From an uncultured Porphyromonadaceae bacterium (GTDB lineage Bacteria > Bacteroidota > Bacteroidia > Bacteroidales > Muribaculaceae): a stretch of 64,000 nucleotides of DNA. Both the position numbers and the translations under genes were made by a program. Under the pieces are notes generated by a model. It was not told where the DNA came from. It did no database searches and saw only the letters and a program-made list of their open reading frames with translations. Positions within the stretch are counted from its first letter, which is position 1; the number at the start of each line of letters is the position of its first letter. Shown piece by piece: positions 31,522-46,779 of the stretch. The stretch covers positions 1-64,000 of the forward strand of contig CAMWID010000003.1 in assembly GCA_947174235.1 (NCBI GenBank), in the 5' to 3' direction.

Positions 31522-34422
31522 TTATTCTTTTCTTAAAAAATCGGTAAGACTGTCTTCCCTCCCCAGATTGAATTTCTTGCGGATGCGATAACGCATCGTC
31601 TCCACTCCGCGCACAGAGATACTGAGAAGCGGCGCGATCTCTTTGGTGGAAAGGTTCATCTTGAGATATGCGCACATGAGCACTTCATTGTTTGTCAGGT
31701 CGGGATAATCTGCACGCAATTTCTTTATGAAATCATTGTGGACAAGATCAAACTCCTCCTCCACCCTTTTCAACACCTGGTCGCTCTTTATATCCACAGT
31801 CACCTTCCCCTGTAGTTCCTGAATGGCTTTTCTGGCATCGGAAGATGACCTGGGAATAAGCTGGAGAATATTCTGCAGCTCCCTTTTCACGGTCTGCAAT
31901 GTCTCGTTTTTATTTGCCAGACTGATCATGACGTTAGCCATTTCCTGTGCCTTATGACGCAATTCCTTGTCAAGCTGTTCTTTCTCAAGCTGTACGATCT
32001 TATGATCCTTAAGTTTCGATTCCCATTCGAAATCCGCCTGACGTCTCGCCATCTCGGCATCTTTTTCCCTCATGAGGTCAAGCTGTTTGAGACGCACCCT
32101 TCTTTTCTCAAGCACGACACATCCCCAGACTGCAACCGCCGCAAGAGCAACATACAGACCAAGCGCCCACACCGAACGCCACCAGGGAGGAGACACTCTG
32201 AAGCTTATGGAGTCGATACTTTCAGAACCGTCTGCCGCCACCGCCCTCACCTCGAAGGTGTATTCCCCCTCCTTGAGATTGGTAAATTCCTTCATCCCGG
32301 AAGACACGGGCGCGCTCCACTTGTCATCTTTAAACCTGGTATGATACAATACTCCCTGGGCAAGCTCCGCAGGACTTCCGAACTCTATCCTGATAGAATT
32401 TTCGGAATATTTCAACACGATATCATCCTTCAGACCCTGGAAATTACCTTGATATACAATGGAGTCTTTCATGGTGGTGACTGACATGCGGTTGATCCTT
32501 GAAAGAGGCTTGCCCCACTCATCAGGCACGGAATCTCCGGACTCGGAGAAATCAAAGAACGCATATCCGTTGCGAGTAGGATACGCAATATAATCAGGCG
32601 CGACAGGAAACATCACTTCGCCGTCGTGCATAGGTTTTGTGTCGGACACCGGCAACGGAATGCGGCGCATCCCTAAAATCCCCGCAGGATCAGCCTGAAG
32701 AATCTCCTTGTCGGTCAAAGCATAGATCCACCCTCCCGTTTTGCCGACGCGCGAGACCTTATGCGGCGAACCTAAAAGCAGTGACATCCTCCGATCCGGA
32801 ACGATCGATTCGGCGTTTGAATCATAGCGGTATATACCCGATCGTGTTGAAAAATAGACATCGTTGTCTATCCTGCTTATAGAGATACCCGAAGTGAGTG
32901 ACAGACCGTCGGACGTCTCTTTAAAGTTAAATATTTTCTCCACCCTCATCGTTGCCGTGTCAACCGCCAGCCTGTACACTCCCTCTTCACCATCGTCGCT
33001 CCAAAGATGTGTGGCGGATTCCTGAACGAAATTATAACAGCTTCCGGTATATCCTCCGACAGTACCGTCAAGCAGCCATCTGCCTTTCCCTTTCCTTATC
33101 ACCATGAATCCGAAGTATGTACCCACATACGCGCGGTCAGGGTCGTTCCGGAAACGCTCTACATTCCACGCCGACTTCACACCCTCGATACGTTCAACCC
33201 GGTTCCCGTTTATCAGAAAAAGCCCCCTGTCATGACAGCAGAACAGATCGTTCCCTATTTTTGACAATCCCCATACCTGACCTTTCAGACCTTCAATCTG
33301 CCTGAAAGTGGAGCGGGAAAGATCCGCCCCCGGAAAATAATCCACATAAAAGAGACCACGGTTGGTGCCGAGATACATCTTGTCGCCGACCGTGGCGAGC
33401 ACATATCCCGACCCGATCGGAAGCGCATTGTTCGTGAAGGTCTCCACAGGCATTGTCAGCAATATCTTTGCCACGCCTACGTCCAGCCCCGCCCACAGGT
33501 CCCCCTTGCCGTCAAACTTCAGCGACAGCACGGTATTGTTGGGCAACCCCGTCGATTCATTATACAGCTTCATGGCTCCCGAAGTAAGATCTATGACCCC
33601 TACCCCGTTGTCGATACTGCCGAGAGCCAATGTATTGGCGCATACATCCGCACTGAACACCTCTCCGAGCGCCAATGCCGCCGAAGAAGCCGCCTCAAGC
33701 CTTGTGAGGGTATTTCTGTCATACCTGTATACCCCCTTGTCAGCCGTGACCACAAGCATGGATCCTCCATACGGGAGCACACCCCTTATCCGCACCCCCT
33801 TCAAAGATTCAGCTCCGTGCGCGTCGACCACCGACTTCCCCATAAGGAACTTCAATCCGTCGTCAGTACCGAGCCACAAGACCCCGTCATCCATCTCTGA
33901 ACAATCTATTTTGTATCCCGCGTCAATTAGTGTGTGCGCCCCGGATTCCTCGTCATACAGAATTACACTGACATCCCCCTGCGCCACGACAGTATTGCCA
34001 TGACTGTATACATTCCATATATTGCCGATATGCCTGTCGTTGCCCACGCTGTCGCTCAGGCATATATACTCTAAAGATTTTTCCGGATCAGAAATATAAT
34101 ATCCGAATTCGTTTATACCCCCGACATAAAGGCGCTTCTTCTTTTCGTCCATAAAAACTCCACGAGAAGAGTAACGGTTGTTCAGCGGAAACATCCTCAC
34201 CATGGAATTATCGAATTGCAGCAAACCGTCCTGGGTTGCAAAAAACACCCAGCCGTCATCAAAAGTGGCGATTTTCCATGCTTTTGCCGTGGCGAGCGGA
34301 GTCCCGGGGAAAGACTGGATCATTTTCTGACCCAACGGGAAAACCGGCACAGACATGACAAGCCACACCACCACCATGATAATACGGAAGGAGATTGCCC
34401 GGAGATGCCTCGGGACGGTCAT
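31522..34422 (-). CDS. Propeller-type sensor regulator with Y_Y_Y and LuxR-like HTH
   Basis: A transmembrane one-component regulator of about 966 residues. The N-terminal signal/anchor is followed by a large periplasmic two-component-regulator-type propeller (repeats such as DLWAGLDVGVAKI and MYLGTNRGLFYVDY), a Y_Y_Y domain (GEYTFEVRAVAADGSES), a membrane helix (VWALGLYVALAAVAVWG), a coiled coil, and a C-terminal LuxR-type helix-turn-helix (LSTKEIAPLLSISVRGVETM). It has no histidine kinase or receiver, unlike classical hybrid systems. It heads the beta-glucan locus and probably senses its oligosaccharides. The ATG at 34422 gives the best signal sequence; 34491 is possible. Confidence 0.85.
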   Translation of the reverse strand: MTVPRHLRAISFRIIMVVVWLVMSVPVFPLGQKMIQSFPGTPLATAKAWKIATFDDGWVFFATQDGLLQFDNSMVRMFPLNNRYSSRGVFMDEKKKRLYVGGINEFGYYISDPEKSLEYICLSDSVGNDRHIGNIWNVYSHGNTVVAQGDVSVILYDEESGAHTLIDAGYKIDCSEMDDGVLWLGTDDGLKFLMGKSVVDAHGAESLKGVRIRGVLPYGGSMLVVTADKGVYRYDRNTLTRLEAASSAALALGEVFSADVCANTLALGSIDNGVGVIDLTSGAMKLYNESTGLPNNTVLSLKFDGKGDLWAGLDVGVAKILLTMPVETFTNNALPIGSGYVLATVGDKMYLGTNRGLFYVDYFPGADLSRSTFRQIEGLKGQVWGLSKIGNDLFCCHDRGLFLINGNRVERIEGVKSAWNVERFRNDPDRAYVGTYFGFMVIRKGKGRWLLDGTVGGYTGSCYNFVQESATHLWSDDGEEGVYRLAVDTATMRVEKIFNFKETSDGLSLTSGISISRIDNDVYFSTRSGIYRYDSNAESIVPDRRMSLLLGSPHKVSRVGKTGGWIYALTDKEILQADPAGILGMRRIPLPVSDTKPMHDGEVMFPVAPDYIAYPTRNGYAFFDFSESGDSVPDEWGKPLSRINRMSVTTMKDSIVYQGNFQGLKDDIVLKYSENSIRIEFGSPAELAQGVLYHTRFKDDKWSAPVSSGMKEFTNLKEGEYTFEVRAVAADGSESIDSISFRVSPPWWRSVWALGLYVALAAVAVWGCVVLEKRRVRLKQLDLMREKDAEMARRQADFEWESKLKDHKIVQLEKEQLDKELRHKAQEMANVMISLANKNETLQTVKRELQNILQLIPRSSSDARKAIQELQGKVTVDIKSDQVLKRVEEEFDLVHNDFIKKLRADYPDLTNNEVLMCAYLKMNLSTKEIAPLLSISVRGVETMRYRIRKKFNLGREDSLTDFLRKE

Positions 34423-34540
34423 ATCGTTCGTTTTATGAGTCAGTTTGTCAGCAGCAAGATACATCCCTGTCAGATAATATATATGCAACACATTTATTAC
34501 CAGCCATTATCTTATATGACCGACAATATCATATGTTTTG

Positions 34541-34572
34541 TCAAAATTAGAAAAATTTTTCCAATTCTCAAA
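34541..34572 (-). promoter_or_regulatory. Promoter of the propeller regulator
   Basis: On the minus strand TTTG (34569-34572) and TAATTTTGA (34541-34549) are 19 nt apart, close to the -33/-7 consensus. Confidence 0.6.
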
Positions 34573-34686
34573 AAAATATAGCAAACCGTTTACCTTTGAT
34601 TCTGATTTTACCTTATCCGATTTTTATGATTTATAATTATTTCAGCCAGACAAACAAAAAAATCCTCAAAATTATTTACAAAATTC

Positions 34687-34717
34687 TTGTATTTTAAAAA
34701 AGTTTGATTAATTTTGC
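34687..34717 (+). promoter_or_regulatory. Promoter of the metX-upstream RNA
   Basis: TTG (34687-34689), 19 nt, then TAATTTTGC (34709-34717): an exact match to the Bacteroidetes form. It is divergent from the regulator promoter and points into the structured stretch ending at 35060. Confidence 0.75.
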
Positions 34718-34721
34718 GTCA

Positions 34722-35060
34722 TATATCCCACAGCGCATAGGTTTTGTCACATAAGCCTGATAAGGGAATCCACATTTCTGTGAAGATCCGGAAGTCCTTA
34801 TGCTTGGGATGGATGATTCTAACGCCGCAAAACCGGCGGAGTGATTCCGCTTGTTTTGCCATCGGTCTGATATTTCTTCATAAGGGTTTTGTCAATATGA
34901 CCGATGCATGTTTGGTTGAATAATGGTACATTGGAATCCGACGGCTTTTTAGCCGAACAGATTCAAAGATTCCGGTTACATCTATTTCTGAATCACATCG
35001 ACATGAAACCTGACTCTTTAAAGCAGTAACGAATCCGTGAGGATCCGTTATTGTTTTTTT
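34722..35060 (+). ncRNA. Candidate structured non-coding RNA (about 340 nt)
   Basis: No coding frame explains this stretch, but it can fold into a series of local helices: CCCA/TGGG plus GCATA/TATGC closing a 5' domain (about 34727-34807); GCAAAAC 34827-34833 with GTTTTGC 34853-34859, enclosing GCGGA/TCCGC (34836-34850); an 8-bp perfect helix 34860-34867/34899-34906; GAATC 34933-34937/GATTC 34960-34964 enclosing CGGC/GCCG; and a terminal hairpin with U-tract. It has a promoter in front and a second promoter behind its terminator, so it appears to be its own transcription unit. It could instead be an attenuator for metX. No match to tmRNA, RNase P, SRP or SAM/cobalamin riboswitch motifs was seen. 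Confidence 0.6.
35027..35060 (+). terminator. Intrinsic terminator of the metX-upstream RNA
   Basis: TAACGAATCC (35027-35036) pairs with GGATCCGTTA (35041-35050) with one mismatch and a GTGA tetraloop, followed by TTGTTTTTTT. It is a textbook rho-independent terminator located 140 nt before metX. Confidence 0.85.
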
Positions 35061-35082
35061 ACGGACGGTTAACCATATTTTG

Positions 35083-35114
35083 TTGCGGCTGTGCAATTTT
35101 TTGACTAATTTTGC
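35083..35114 (+). promoter_or_regulatory. Promoter of metX
   Basis: TTG (35083-35085), 20 nt, then TAATTTTGC (35106-35114). It lies downstream of the terminator at 35060, so metX can be transcribed independently of the leader RNA. Confidence 0.7.
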
Positions 35115-35201
35115 AACGGTTTGACCACCCTCCGGCTTTCCATCCTTTTCCACAGGCACACACCCGATTGCCGGACCAACCGATTAGACCCTGTTAATGA
35201 C

Positions 35202-36248
35202 ATGAAACAATTTTTCGAAAGCAGAGAGCCGTTCTCCCTCGAATCAGGAGAAACATTGCCCTCCCTCACTGTGGCTTACCATACTTATGGCAAGCTCTCT
35301 CCCAGACGCGACAACGTGATCTGGGTAATGCACGGGCTGACCGCAAACTCCGACGTGGCAGACTGGTGGCCGGGCACCGTAGGCGACGGCTTGTTTCTCG
35401 ATCCCGGAAAATATTTCATCGTCTGCGCCAACATGCTCGGCTCATGCTATGGCACCACAGGACCCTCTTCTATAAATCCGGCGACAGGCTCACCCTGGTG
35501 CGGATCGTTCCCTAAGGTCACCATACGCGACATGGTACAAGCCCACAAACTCCTCGCGAAACATCTCGGCATCACCAGAATACATGAGATGATCGGTGTG
35601 TCGCTCGGCGGATTCCAAGCCATCGAATGGATGGTCTCGGATCCAGACATCGCTGAAAACGTCATGTTCTGCGCCACCGACTCCTCTTGCAGCCCGTGGC
35701 TCGCGGCATTCAACCAGTCGATGTATATGGCGATAAAGACTGACCCCACATGGGGCACGCCAAGTCTTGACGCGGCAAGACAGGGACTCGCCACAGCCCG
35801 CTCGATAGCCCTCATCAGCTACCGGGGACCTTTCGCCTACAACATGAGCCAGAAAGACAGCGAAGAGAAAGAGGATCCTTTCTTCCACCGCGTACAGACA
35901 TATCAGGAGTATCAGGGGAAAAAACTGTGCGACCGTTTCGATGTCTATTCATATGTAAGGATCTGCCAGAGCGGCGACTCCCACGATGTGGGGCGCGGAA
36001 GAGGCGGCATCAAAAACGCGCTCGCGCGGATCAAAGCCGAAACCCTTGTCATCGGTATCACTTCCGACATATTGTTCCCCCCGGCGTGCCTTGAGGAACT
36101 TGCCGCCAACATCCCCGGCTCCCGTCTGGAGGTGATGCATTCCGATTTCGCACATGACGGATTCCTCATAGAGCACCTGCAGCTCAACGAGATCATGCAC
36201 CGCTGGAGAAAGGAAAGAAAACCCGACAGCGGAGTCAATTGTTTTTAA
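35202..36248 (+). CDS. metX: Homoserine O-acetyltransferase MetX
   Basis: A 348-residue cytoplasmic alpha/beta hydrolase-fold enzyme that acetylates L-homoserine using acetyl-CoA, the first committed step to methionine. The nucleophile elbow is GVSLGGFQAIEW, the acid lies in ITSDILFPP and the His in DFAHDGFLIEH; HGLTANSDVADWW is the N-terminal family motif. The ATG at 35202 matches the usual start before the first strand; upstream codons to 35121 lack similarity. cysE and cysK are 4-6 kb downstream, so sulfur amino-acid genes are loosely grouped. Confidence 0.93.
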   Translation: MKQFFESREPFSLESGETLPSLTVAYHTYGKLSPRRDNVIWVMHGLTANSDVADWWPGTVGDGLFLDPGKYFIVCANMLGSCYGTTGPSSINPATGSPWCGSFPKVTIRDMVQAHKLLAKHLGITRIHEMIGVSLGGFQAIEWMVSDPDIAENVMFCATDSSCSPWLAAFNQSMYMAIKTDPTWGTPSLDAARQGLATARSIALISYRGPFAYNMSQKDSEEKEDPFFHRVQTYQEYQGKKLCDRFDVYSYVRICQSGDSHDVGRGRGGIKNALARIKAETLVIGITSDILFPPACLEELAANIPGSRLEVMHSDFAHDGFLIEHLQLNEIMHRWRKERKPDSGVNCF

Positions 36249-37270: not shown

Positions 37271-37883
37271 GCAAAAGCGGTTATTTACAATGGATATAAA
37301 CGCCATATTTTCAAGATTTTTCATATCGGTATCGATCTGCCTGACCACAACGGCTTGCATAACCGAAAATGAACCGGCAAATACCGGACTTGCCGTCGGC
37401 GACCCACTTCCACAATTCAACTTGACCCTTGACGACGGGAACTACGTCTCCACGACATCATTACGGGGAAAAACAGTCGTGATTGAATTTTTCAACACCT
37501 CCTGCGGGGATTGCCGTGACGGGTTACCCGCCATAAACCGCCTGTATGCGGAATATAAAGACCACCCTGACATCTTCATTTTCGCAGTGTCGCGTGAAGA
37601 GGATACCGTATCTGTCGAGAATTATTGGACGGAACACAATTTCTCATTACCGTATTCCGCCCAATCTGACCGTTTGATCTATAATCTTTTCGCCTCGTCA
37701 GGAATTCCGCGCACATTTATCGCCGACGCTTCCGGCAGAATAGTGGCGACTTTCGGAGATTCCGACATCCCGGATTTTCATACACTCAAAAGTGTGGTCG
37801 ATTCTCTGACACGCCTCTCGTCTGACTCCGATCCGGGACAATACCCTTACGGCGGCACAATGATGCCGGCAAGCGGTTTATAA
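37269..37883 (+). CDS. TlpA-like thiol-disulfide oxidoreductase lipoprotein
   Basis: A 204-residue predicted lipoprotein (lipobox TTAC) with a thioredoxin-like fold: LRGKTVVIEFFNTSCGDCRD carries the redox pair CGDC, and SSGIPRTFIADASGRIVATF is the cis-Pro strand region. It would face the periplasm and reduce or exchange disulfides. The start could be 37269 or 37290; both give a signal peptide. Its last 6 nt overlap the end of the convergent serpin gene, so each stop lies within the other transcript. Confidence 0.8.
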   Translation: MQKRLFTMDINAIFSRFFISVSICLTTTACITENEPANTGLAVGDPLPQFNLTLDDGNYVSTTSLRGKTVVIEFFNTSCGDCRDGLPAINRLYAEYKDHPDIFIFAVSREEDTVSVENYWTEHNFSLPYSAQSDRLIYNLFASSGIPRTFIADASGRIVATFGDSDIPDFHTLKSVVDSLTRLSSDSDPGQYPYGGTMMPASGL

Positions 37884-39134
37884 ATCCGCTATGCGTCCGG
37901 ACAACAGGCAGGCACCTGTACTTTTTTCTTTCAAGAAGAAATAGAACGGTCTGTCAACCTTCACAGTATATGTTTCTCCGGGGACGATTTCCGGTGATGT
38001 GATTTTAATCTCTCCCGTTGAGACTGAAGCAGCCTTTGCCCCATTCTCATCAATCTCAAGACGCGCCGATTGTCTGAATAGCACCACTCCCTCGCAAGCA
38101 GGTTCAAACATATCAAAAGAAAGATTGTCTTTTATATCCGGCAACTTCACAGATGCAAGCACGTCACTCACATCCAGTCCCGTCTCGACCTTGAATCTGG
38201 GTAGATATACGGCAAGTCGGCACTTCACAGCCTCTTCCTCCAATTTGGTAAATTCAGCAGCGGTAAGCAGCCTGTTCGCGTCCGTCAGTGACAAAGTCTC
38301 TTTAGGAAGTACAACCATAAAAGAAAACGCTGAATTGCCAAAGTCAAGATAAAAAGCATCGAAACTATCGTCAGAGGCATATTTCCTGTCTGTATGATAT
38401 GAAAACATCATATCCACATCCTTAGTCCCACCGGCGCCATGGAAAGACATTTTTTCCGTATTTTCCACAAGAAACGCCTTATCTTTCCATATGCCTTTAA
38501 AATACAACGTATTCAACAATAACGCAAGAGAGGAGGGCGACAGCTTCTCTATCATGTTAGTGATCATTCCTCCTGTATTGTCAGAACACCATTTGTTGAT
38601 ATTCTTGACAGCCCGGGCATTATCGCCTGAGAAATCCTCATTCCTTAAATCCGCAAGATATTCGGACATCATACGCGAAGCAAATTCGCTTGTAAGCTCA
38701 TATGGTCTGTTAACCCATATTGAATTTGCAAGACTTAGATCCGTCTGGTTGTCAGCTTTTGGAAGCTCCTTCAGTAGTATATTTGCCAATGAATTCACAG
38801 CTTCCACATCTGCGACCCCAAGATAATTGGCAATCTCTTTACTGATGTCCCCTTCCACACCATTCGCCACCATAGCCAATACCATAGATGCTGACAGCGG
38901 TGAGACAACCACGTTTTTCCCACTTATGTCAGAGTCTGAATCAACATGACCAATGGCATCTGTTGTAAAATCAACATAGAAGCTCTTCAGATTCTCTGCG
39001 GCAGATCTTGTAGCGCCGTCAAGCACAATATCCACCCTATCATTGGGAATAATCTCACCCGGCTCATTCCCGGATGTACATCCGGATGCTATCATCAAGA
39101 GCATCGTTCCAAATGTCAAGATAAGTTTTTTCAT
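37878..39134 (-). CDS. Serpin-family protease inhibitor lipoprotein
   Basis: A 418-residue protein with lipobox ASGC and a full-length serpin domain: NVVVSPLSASMVLAMVANG, LANSIWVNRPY, LLLNTLYFKGIWKDKAF, and the C-terminal VDRPFYFFLKEKSTGACLLSGR. The hinge before the reactive loop reads ENGAKAASVSTG, small residues as in inhibitory serpins. It would sit on the outer membrane or cell surface and trap host or competitor serine proteases; the target is not predictable. It overlaps the TlpA-like gene by 6 nt tail to tail. Confidence 0.92.
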   Translation of the reverse strand: MKKLILTFGTMLLMIASGCTSGNEPGEIIPNDRVDIVLDGATRSAAENLKSFYVDFTTDAIGHVDSDSDISGKNVVVSPLSASMVLAMVANGVEGDISKEIANYLGVADVEAVNSLANILLKELPKADNQTDLSLANSIWVNRPYELTSEFASRMMSEYLADLRNEDFSGDNARAVKNINKWCSDNTGGMITNMIEKLSPSSLALLLNTLYFKGIWKDKAFLVENTEKMSFHGAGGTKDVDMMFSYHTDRKYASDDSFDAFYLDFGNSAFSFMVVLPKETLSLTDANRLLTAAEFTKLEEEAVKCRLAVYLPRFKVETGLDVSDVLASVKLPDIKDNLSFDMFEPACEGVVLFRQSARLEIDENGAKAASVSTGEIKITSPEIVPGETYTVKVDRPFYFFLKEKSTGACLLSGRIADL

Positions 39135-46700: not shown

Positions 46701-46708
46701 GAATTACG

Positions 46709-46779
46709 TTGTCTTACCAGGATTCGAACCTGGACAGGCAGAACCAAAAACTGCAGTGCTACCATTACACCATAAGACA
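46709..46779 (-). tRNA. tRNA-Gln (anticodon TTG)
   Basis: The minus strand folds as a tRNA: acceptor stem TGTCTTA/TAAGACA with discriminator A, D-arm with GGTGTAATGGTAGCA, T-arm CCAGGTTCGAATCCTGG, and anticodon loop TTTTGGT with anticodon TTG. The innermost anticodon-stem pair (T-T) is a mismatch. CCA is not encoded. Confidence 0.9.

Follow-up and report, generated by a model that had tools for sequence, protein, structure and literature searches.

In the present study, an intergenic locus in the window (the whole stretch of 64,000 nucleotides that was analyzed) was found to contain a putative RNA of about 340 nucleotides, which is shorter in many relatives. In the sequences compared, a predicted promoter, a hairpin (P1), an invariant linker of 19 nucleotides, a second hairpin (P2) and a predicted terminator recur across most of the family; the invariance of the linker within the search pattern is by construction, as the homologs were fetched with that pattern. 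Judged across species, the linker core is far better kept than the rest of the RNA. We give about equal weight for and against the reading that this is an independently transcribed, trans-acting small RNA (sRNA), the linker being a contact site that pairs with translation starts. The features of the locus are given in Table 1.

Table 1. Features of the RNA locus and of the adjacent gene, with window positions.
Feature	Position	Strand	Basis
Bacteroidota-type promoter, TTG ... TAATTTTG	34687..34716	+	sequence; TAnnTTTG upstream in homologs
5′ domain, predicted closed multi-helix	34720..34815	+	fold
Hairpin GCAAAAC...GTTTTGC	34827..34859	+	fold
P1 hairpin, CATCGGTC (34860–34867) pairing with GACCGATG (34899–34906), GGGTTTTGTC (34884–34893) in the loop	34860..34906	+	covariation, hairpin scores
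Linker GUUUGGUURAAUAWUGGUA, proposed contact site	34910..34928	+	comparison
P2 hairpin 3′ of the linker, inner stem CGGCT/AGCCG	34930..34976	+	fold with the linker core held unpaired
GAATC	34934..34938	+	sequence comparison
Intrinsic terminator, GUGA tetraloop and U-run	35025..35061 (about)	+	two folding-based scans
Separate promoter of the metX-like gene, TAATTTTG at 35106–35113	35083..35113	+	sequence
metX-like gene, neighbor outside the RNA, ATG at 35202	35202..36248	+	best NCBIfam match MetX TIGR01392, 329 bits, under the cut-off of 500; Pfam Abhydrolase_1

Promoter, Fold, and Terminator

The original prediction placed a promoter ahead of a structured RNA, an intrinsic terminator with a GNRA-like loop behind it, and a second promoter for metX after the terminator, and all of these elements were recovered. 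The first promoter, as read from the sequence, contained TTG at 34687–34689, followed by a gap of 19 nucleotides and TAATTTTG at 34709–34716; the second contained TAATTTTG as well. The terminator hairpin was AGTAACGAATCC-GUGA-GGATCCGTTATT followed by a T-run, and its GUGA was the GNRA-like loop. A sigma-70 scan listed neither promoter, as expected because the host belongs to the Bacteroidota; the terminator of the RNA was also missing from that scan but was listed by the folding-based scans. The region 34720–35062 was predicted to fold at −107.9 kcal/mol, compared with −83.5 ± 4.9 kcal/mol in dinucleotide shuffles (n = 100), none of which was equally low (z = −5.0), so that the predicted structured RNA does fold more stably than its shuffles. 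The predicted fold was composed of several separate helices and not of a single rod. Only one blastn relative (G022) was found to align with the 5′ domain.

A large gene, by eye encoding a sensor-like regulator, was present at 31522–34491 on the minus strand, divergent from the RNA, and L050 and L054 each had a homolog in the corresponding position.

Homologs and Conserved Elements of the Family

A blastn search with a query of 526 nucleotides against 61 genomes gave 10 non-self places, nine of which spanned nucleotides 231–249 of the query, corresponding to the linker in the window; this result preceded any choice of motif. The 21-mer ATGTTTGGTTGAATAATGGTA was found at up to three mismatches in 43 of the 101 genus genomes, mostly as a single match, although the reversed 21-mer gave 5 matches and some of the 43 were chance matches within genes. 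The RNA itself was usually present in one copy per genome. An exact scan for GTTTGGTTRAATAWTGGTA, with one genome per species in 84,980 species, returned 45 stretches, of which 33 were distinct homologs, two were duplicates identical over 120 nucleotides (L070 to L045, and L078 to L071), and the other ten (L044, L053, L056, L059, L062, L066, L068, L074, L079, and L083), each lying in an open frame of at least 130 codons in an unrelated taxon, were discarded as chance hits. Together with the window copy, the set contained 34 homologs. The records were labeled as Muribaculaceae (many), Porphyromonadaceae, Bacteroides sp., Prevotella sp., Bacteroidales and similar.

Outside the linker, the subfamilies had little in common. 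P1 of the window's subfamily contained CCATCGG...GGGTTTTGTC...CCGATG, and two other subfamilies were marked upstream of the linker by AAAACTGTG and GCGTGAGC, respectively. In 27 of the 34 homologs, a TAnnTTTG motif preceded the linker by 90–300 nucleotides (mean 3.9 and maximum 8 in base-shuffled flanks). A terminator-like hairpin with a T-run was present downstream in 24 of the 34 when two folding-based scans were joined; taken separately, the scans gave 16 (without a shuffled control) and 15 (0–2 in shuffled sequences). Of these 24 structures, 22 had by eye CGNGA at the loop, and in several of them a further U was present (CGUGAUG).

The pairing of 8 bp between 34860–34867 and 34899–34906 that the original prediction had described was present in the window and mostly kept in 10 relatives. 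Within the window's subfamily (10 sequences), 90.9% of the cells of P1 were standard pairs. The covariation of P1 was 0.180 vs. 0.121 in shuffled alignments, and none of 500 shuffles reached it; three pairs were changed on both sides, which 13 of the 500 shuffles also achieved. Coming from 10 related sequences, this covariation is modest support for P1, and not proof. Across the 34 homologs, the hairpins 5′ and 3′ of the linker scored above base shuffles with p = 2e-9 and p = 2e-4, respectively, relatedness being ignored. The GAATC sequence followed the linker in 12 of the 34 homologs, at a distance of 5 nucleotides in nine, 4 in two, and 6 in one. In free local folds the mean unpaired probability of the linker core was 0.47 (0.19–0.68), and in the whole-RNA fold of the window copy the core was partly paired; therefore, to call the linker single-stranded is a model only.

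Distribution

The exact 16-nucleotide core was found in 13 of 42 genomes of the host's own genus vs. 8 of 205 other genomes (247 genomes of the family); the reversed control had 7 matches in the same 205 genomes, and the match in G007 looks like chance. An order-wide scan of 294 genomes found the linker at up to two mismatches in 119, the reversed control being of the same order (16 linker and 15 reversed matches in the first 26 rows), and the host's own genome contained the sole exact linker among the matches listed. A wider spread across the order had no support in this comparison. Viral contigs contained no exact linker match, and a phage or virus origin was rejected on that count. The RNA thus appears to be confined to one Muribaculaceae-type genus, and it would be missing, or too diverged for the patterns used, in over half of that genus. 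Muribaculaceae are major gut bacteria.

Linker Complements at Translation Starts

If the linker were a seed, its complements would be expected at translation starts, and this hypothesis was tested in 15 linker-bearing genomes, on complements with at most one mismatch in 14 nucleotides, with one automatic rule that defined the start region as −65 to +12. The pattern TTATTCAACCAAAC gave 18 non-self sites, 15 of which were read, and the pattern TACCATTATTCAAC gave 12, all of which were read. Sites in start regions numbered 5 of 15 and 6 of 12, respectively, or 11 of 27 jointly, the 27 sites being 26 places since a site of G034:C4 belonged to both patterns. The reversed form of TTATTCAACCAAAC had 0 of 13 sites at starts (Fisher p = 0.007 against 11 of 27); the bias was first noticed by eye and the rule was set afterwards, so that the second pattern alone is a repeat. 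The reversed form of TACCATTATTCAAC matched at 8 sites and a search of linker-free species gave 9, both sets being left out of the count.

The larger tests stand against this bias. When 1.9 Mb of sequence from linker-bearing genomes was searched with up to two mismatches allowed, a single one of 17 linker sites was at a start, which was not above the shuffled patterns (10.3 and 6.2% at starts, at the same mismatch limit and sequence length with a slightly stricter gene rule). Start-region tests on stretches of G000 (622 genes) and G033 (261 genes) gave no enrichment, nor did a fresh test of a fixed seed in G004 (304 genes; 1 vs. 1.6). In G061 (318 genes), one of four seeds was enriched (8 vs. 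1.5, 0 of 600 shuffles) and exact 8–10-mers were weakly enriched, where many seed–genome pairs had been tried; none of the eight seed-bearing genes met a crude signal-peptide rule. The duplex energies had no clear shift. Because these negative larger tests, including the fresh one, stand against the start-site bias, we put the chance that the linker pairs with mRNA at about even.

The candidate mRNA targets are to be taken as a lead and not as a result. By eye, 9 of the 11 start-site proteins contained a signal-like N-terminus. Two from different species were C10 peptidases, one in G033 by Pfam and one in G004, 48% identical to it. Further start-site genes encoded, by Pfam, a C69 dipeptidase, a serpin, a patatin, a GH127 protein, a DUF3078 protein, and ribosomal protein S20. 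In the window's own genome the complement site began 40 nucleotides ahead of the ATG of a catalase gene (identified by Pfam), and two more start-site proteins were exported-looking, named by eye only. Two additional sites were start-proximal by eye and outside the rule: one in G034, complementary at 18 of 19 positions and beginning 6 nucleotides past the first ATG, and one in G004 ahead of an M13 peptidase gene. The leader of the serpin gene in G061 contained a linker complement. In the window, a gene that looks serpin-like by eye lies 3 kb from the RNA, at 37878–39134 on the minus strand, and its own leader gave only a weak duplex of −12.7 kcal/mol.

Possible Function of the Linker

In the reading that we favor, the sRNA gene would be transcribed from its own promoter and ended at its own terminator, and the RNA would act in trans. 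The linker, which P1 and P2 would flank and present, may then be the contact site and would base-pair with mRNAs around their translation starts; the set of these mRNAs would be modest and might consist chiefly of those for exported proteins. Such pairing would resemble that of the GibS and FopS sRNAs of Bacteroides. As described in PMC7366714 and PMC11697453, both sRNAs of Bacteroides thetaiotaomicron have a Rho-independent terminator and carry in their 5′ part a conserved seed that is mainly single-stranded, GibS being 145 nucleotides long and FopS about 65–70 nucleotides with 14 copies. Like them, the putative sRNA of the window belongs to the Bacteroidota and has a conserved putative contact stretch and a predicted terminator, whereas it is about 340 nucleotides long, is usually present in one copy, and carries the linker in the middle between two hairpins. 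The FopS seed piece TTTAAGGTTAACAAA (15 nucleotides, up to three mismatches) was absent from the RNA and had two chance-level matches elsewhere in the window; by the R1 seed sequence, the RNA did not group with GibS and FopS.

It is a rather improbable extension that the RNA, while its hairpins are free to change, uses a fixed linker of 19 nucleotides to control a set of enzymes that are exported and of proteins of the envelope, namely C10, C69, and M13 peptidases, a serpin, a glycosidase, and phospholipase-like and other exported proteins. Among the literature matches listed, no such regulatory RNA, nor any of Muribaculaceae, was described, and the letters of the linker did not occur in the literature text searched. 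One survey of human microbiomes reportedly lists structured-RNA candidates in the thousands, and the linker RNA family could be among them. A family with one fixed stretch of 19 nucleotides would be a direct experimental handle, and would reveal the extent to which an sRNA may diverge around a constant contact site.

The linker may instead be a protein-binding site, the RNA being a scaffold or sponge for an RNA-binding protein (e.g., of the RRM-1 type) and mRNA pairing being secondary or absent; we regard this as possible but clearly less probable than the sRNA reading. It would account for a linker that is kept though the larger tests gave no enrichment at mRNA starts. It would also suit the second half-linker, GTTTGGTT, that was found 73–80 nucleotides upstream of the linker in all three members of one subfamily (−73 in L051, −74 in L073, and −80 in L076) and in none of the others among the 34 homologs; this half-linker was counted in favor of the sRNA reading as well. 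In PMC11697453, the RRM-1 protein RbpB of B. thetaiotaomicron is described as preferring single-stranded regions in noncoding RNAs. However, the full motif is present just once per RNA, and the closest complements of the linker are biased to start sites.

Coding Potential

The locus had been predicted to lack coding potential. Two open reading frames overlap the RNA, one of 93 amino acids on the reverse strand (34878–35159) and one of 41 codons on the forward strand that starts in the hairpin; the forward frame was not kept among the relatives.

A conserved small peptide, M-x-V-W-L-N-[N/I]-G..., encoded by the linker region of a small-protein gene or dual-function RNA, is a very unlikely explanation. 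One frame is open across the linker, with NTG exactly two codons upstream in 22 of the 34 homologs, and the TTG/TTA variation is synonymous. However, 5 of the 34 had no start in frame, three of which contained a stop 2–3 codons before the linker, and an upstream ATG did not occur more often in this frame than in the two others (23 vs. 25 and 17 of 34). The A/T variation would also swap Asn for Ile, the GAATC past the linker shifts by single bases, and agreement of the peptide beyond the linker was confined to subfamilies. As is usual for intergenic trans-encoded sRNAs, the locus combines its own promoter and intrinsic terminator with conservation across species and no conserved open reading frame, all read from sequence.

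Comparison with Known RNA Families

The original prediction had seen no tmRNA, RNase P, SRP, SAM, or cobalamin motif, and had proposed an Rfam scan including Bacteroidales-1. At gathering scores, the 4227 families of Rfam 15, which include models of all of these, of Bacteroidales-1 (RF01693), and of 6S-Flavo, gave one tRNA in the whole window and no match at the RNA locus, as predicted. At E-values up to 10, the region 34480–35210 gave four matches (a snoRNA, two microRNAs, and RT-3), all far under their gathering scores. ARAGORN found tRNA-Gln at 46708–46779 alone among tRNA and tmRNA folds in the window, and nothing at the RNA locus. Bacteroidales-1 is likewise a structured RNA of Bacteroidales but had no match to the window RNA even at E-values up to 10. 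The linker RNA thus looks like a family absent from the RNA databases searched, and the tmRNA and riboswitch readings had no support.

Still less probable than a peptide is a housekeeping role of the RNA in the genus, 6S-like or otherwise. The usual single copy and the own promoter would agree with it, as would the lack of any 6S model match in the genus (RF00013 in 0 of 1 genome; RF01685 in 0 of 10, namely G000, G022, G027, G033, G061, G004, G030, G034, G109, and G018), although the silence of RF01685 says little because its control detected 1 of 14 known genomes, none above the cut-off. The 6S RNA (RF00013) and 6S-Flavo (RF01685) are also noncoding RNAs with their own gene, but neither model matched in the window, the predicted fold of separate helices is unlike their single rod, and the linker is present in part of the genus only; the 6S reading had no support. 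It may be that the 6S RNA of the genus has diverged beyond the reach of the 6S models.

Neighboring Genes

The least probable of the readings, that the RNA controls metX in cis as an attenuator or riboswitch, would fit the position of the RNA upstream of a metX-like gene in 8 of the 34 homologs (one subgroup only) and the terminator between the two, but it was ruled out by synteny. A metX match was found in 38 of 61 genus genomes. Of the 30 metX loci that were read, six contained the linker, each with metX of at least 80% identity, whereas 24 had no linker within about 1.5 kb on each side or to the end of the contig. Conversely, six genomes (G004, G028, G030, G034, G065, and G069; 86–100% complete) contained the linker at up to one mismatch and no metX match. 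The RNA did not regularly precede the pathway gene across the 34 homologs and the 30 metX loci, and the terminator with a separate promoter past it speaks against read-through control of metX.

The original prediction had left the choice between a trans-acting sRNA and a methionine-pathway attenuator. The attenuator falls on synteny, whereas an independent, probably trans-acting RNA is supported, since homologs with their own predicted promoter and terminator lie in differing gene contexts and keep a helix and a well-kept core. Among these contexts, a GAPDH gene (identified by an NCBIfam match for the L041 copy) was found near the RNA in 10 of the 34 homologs, nine times upstream on the same strand at 0.3–1.2 kb and once downstream on the other strand.
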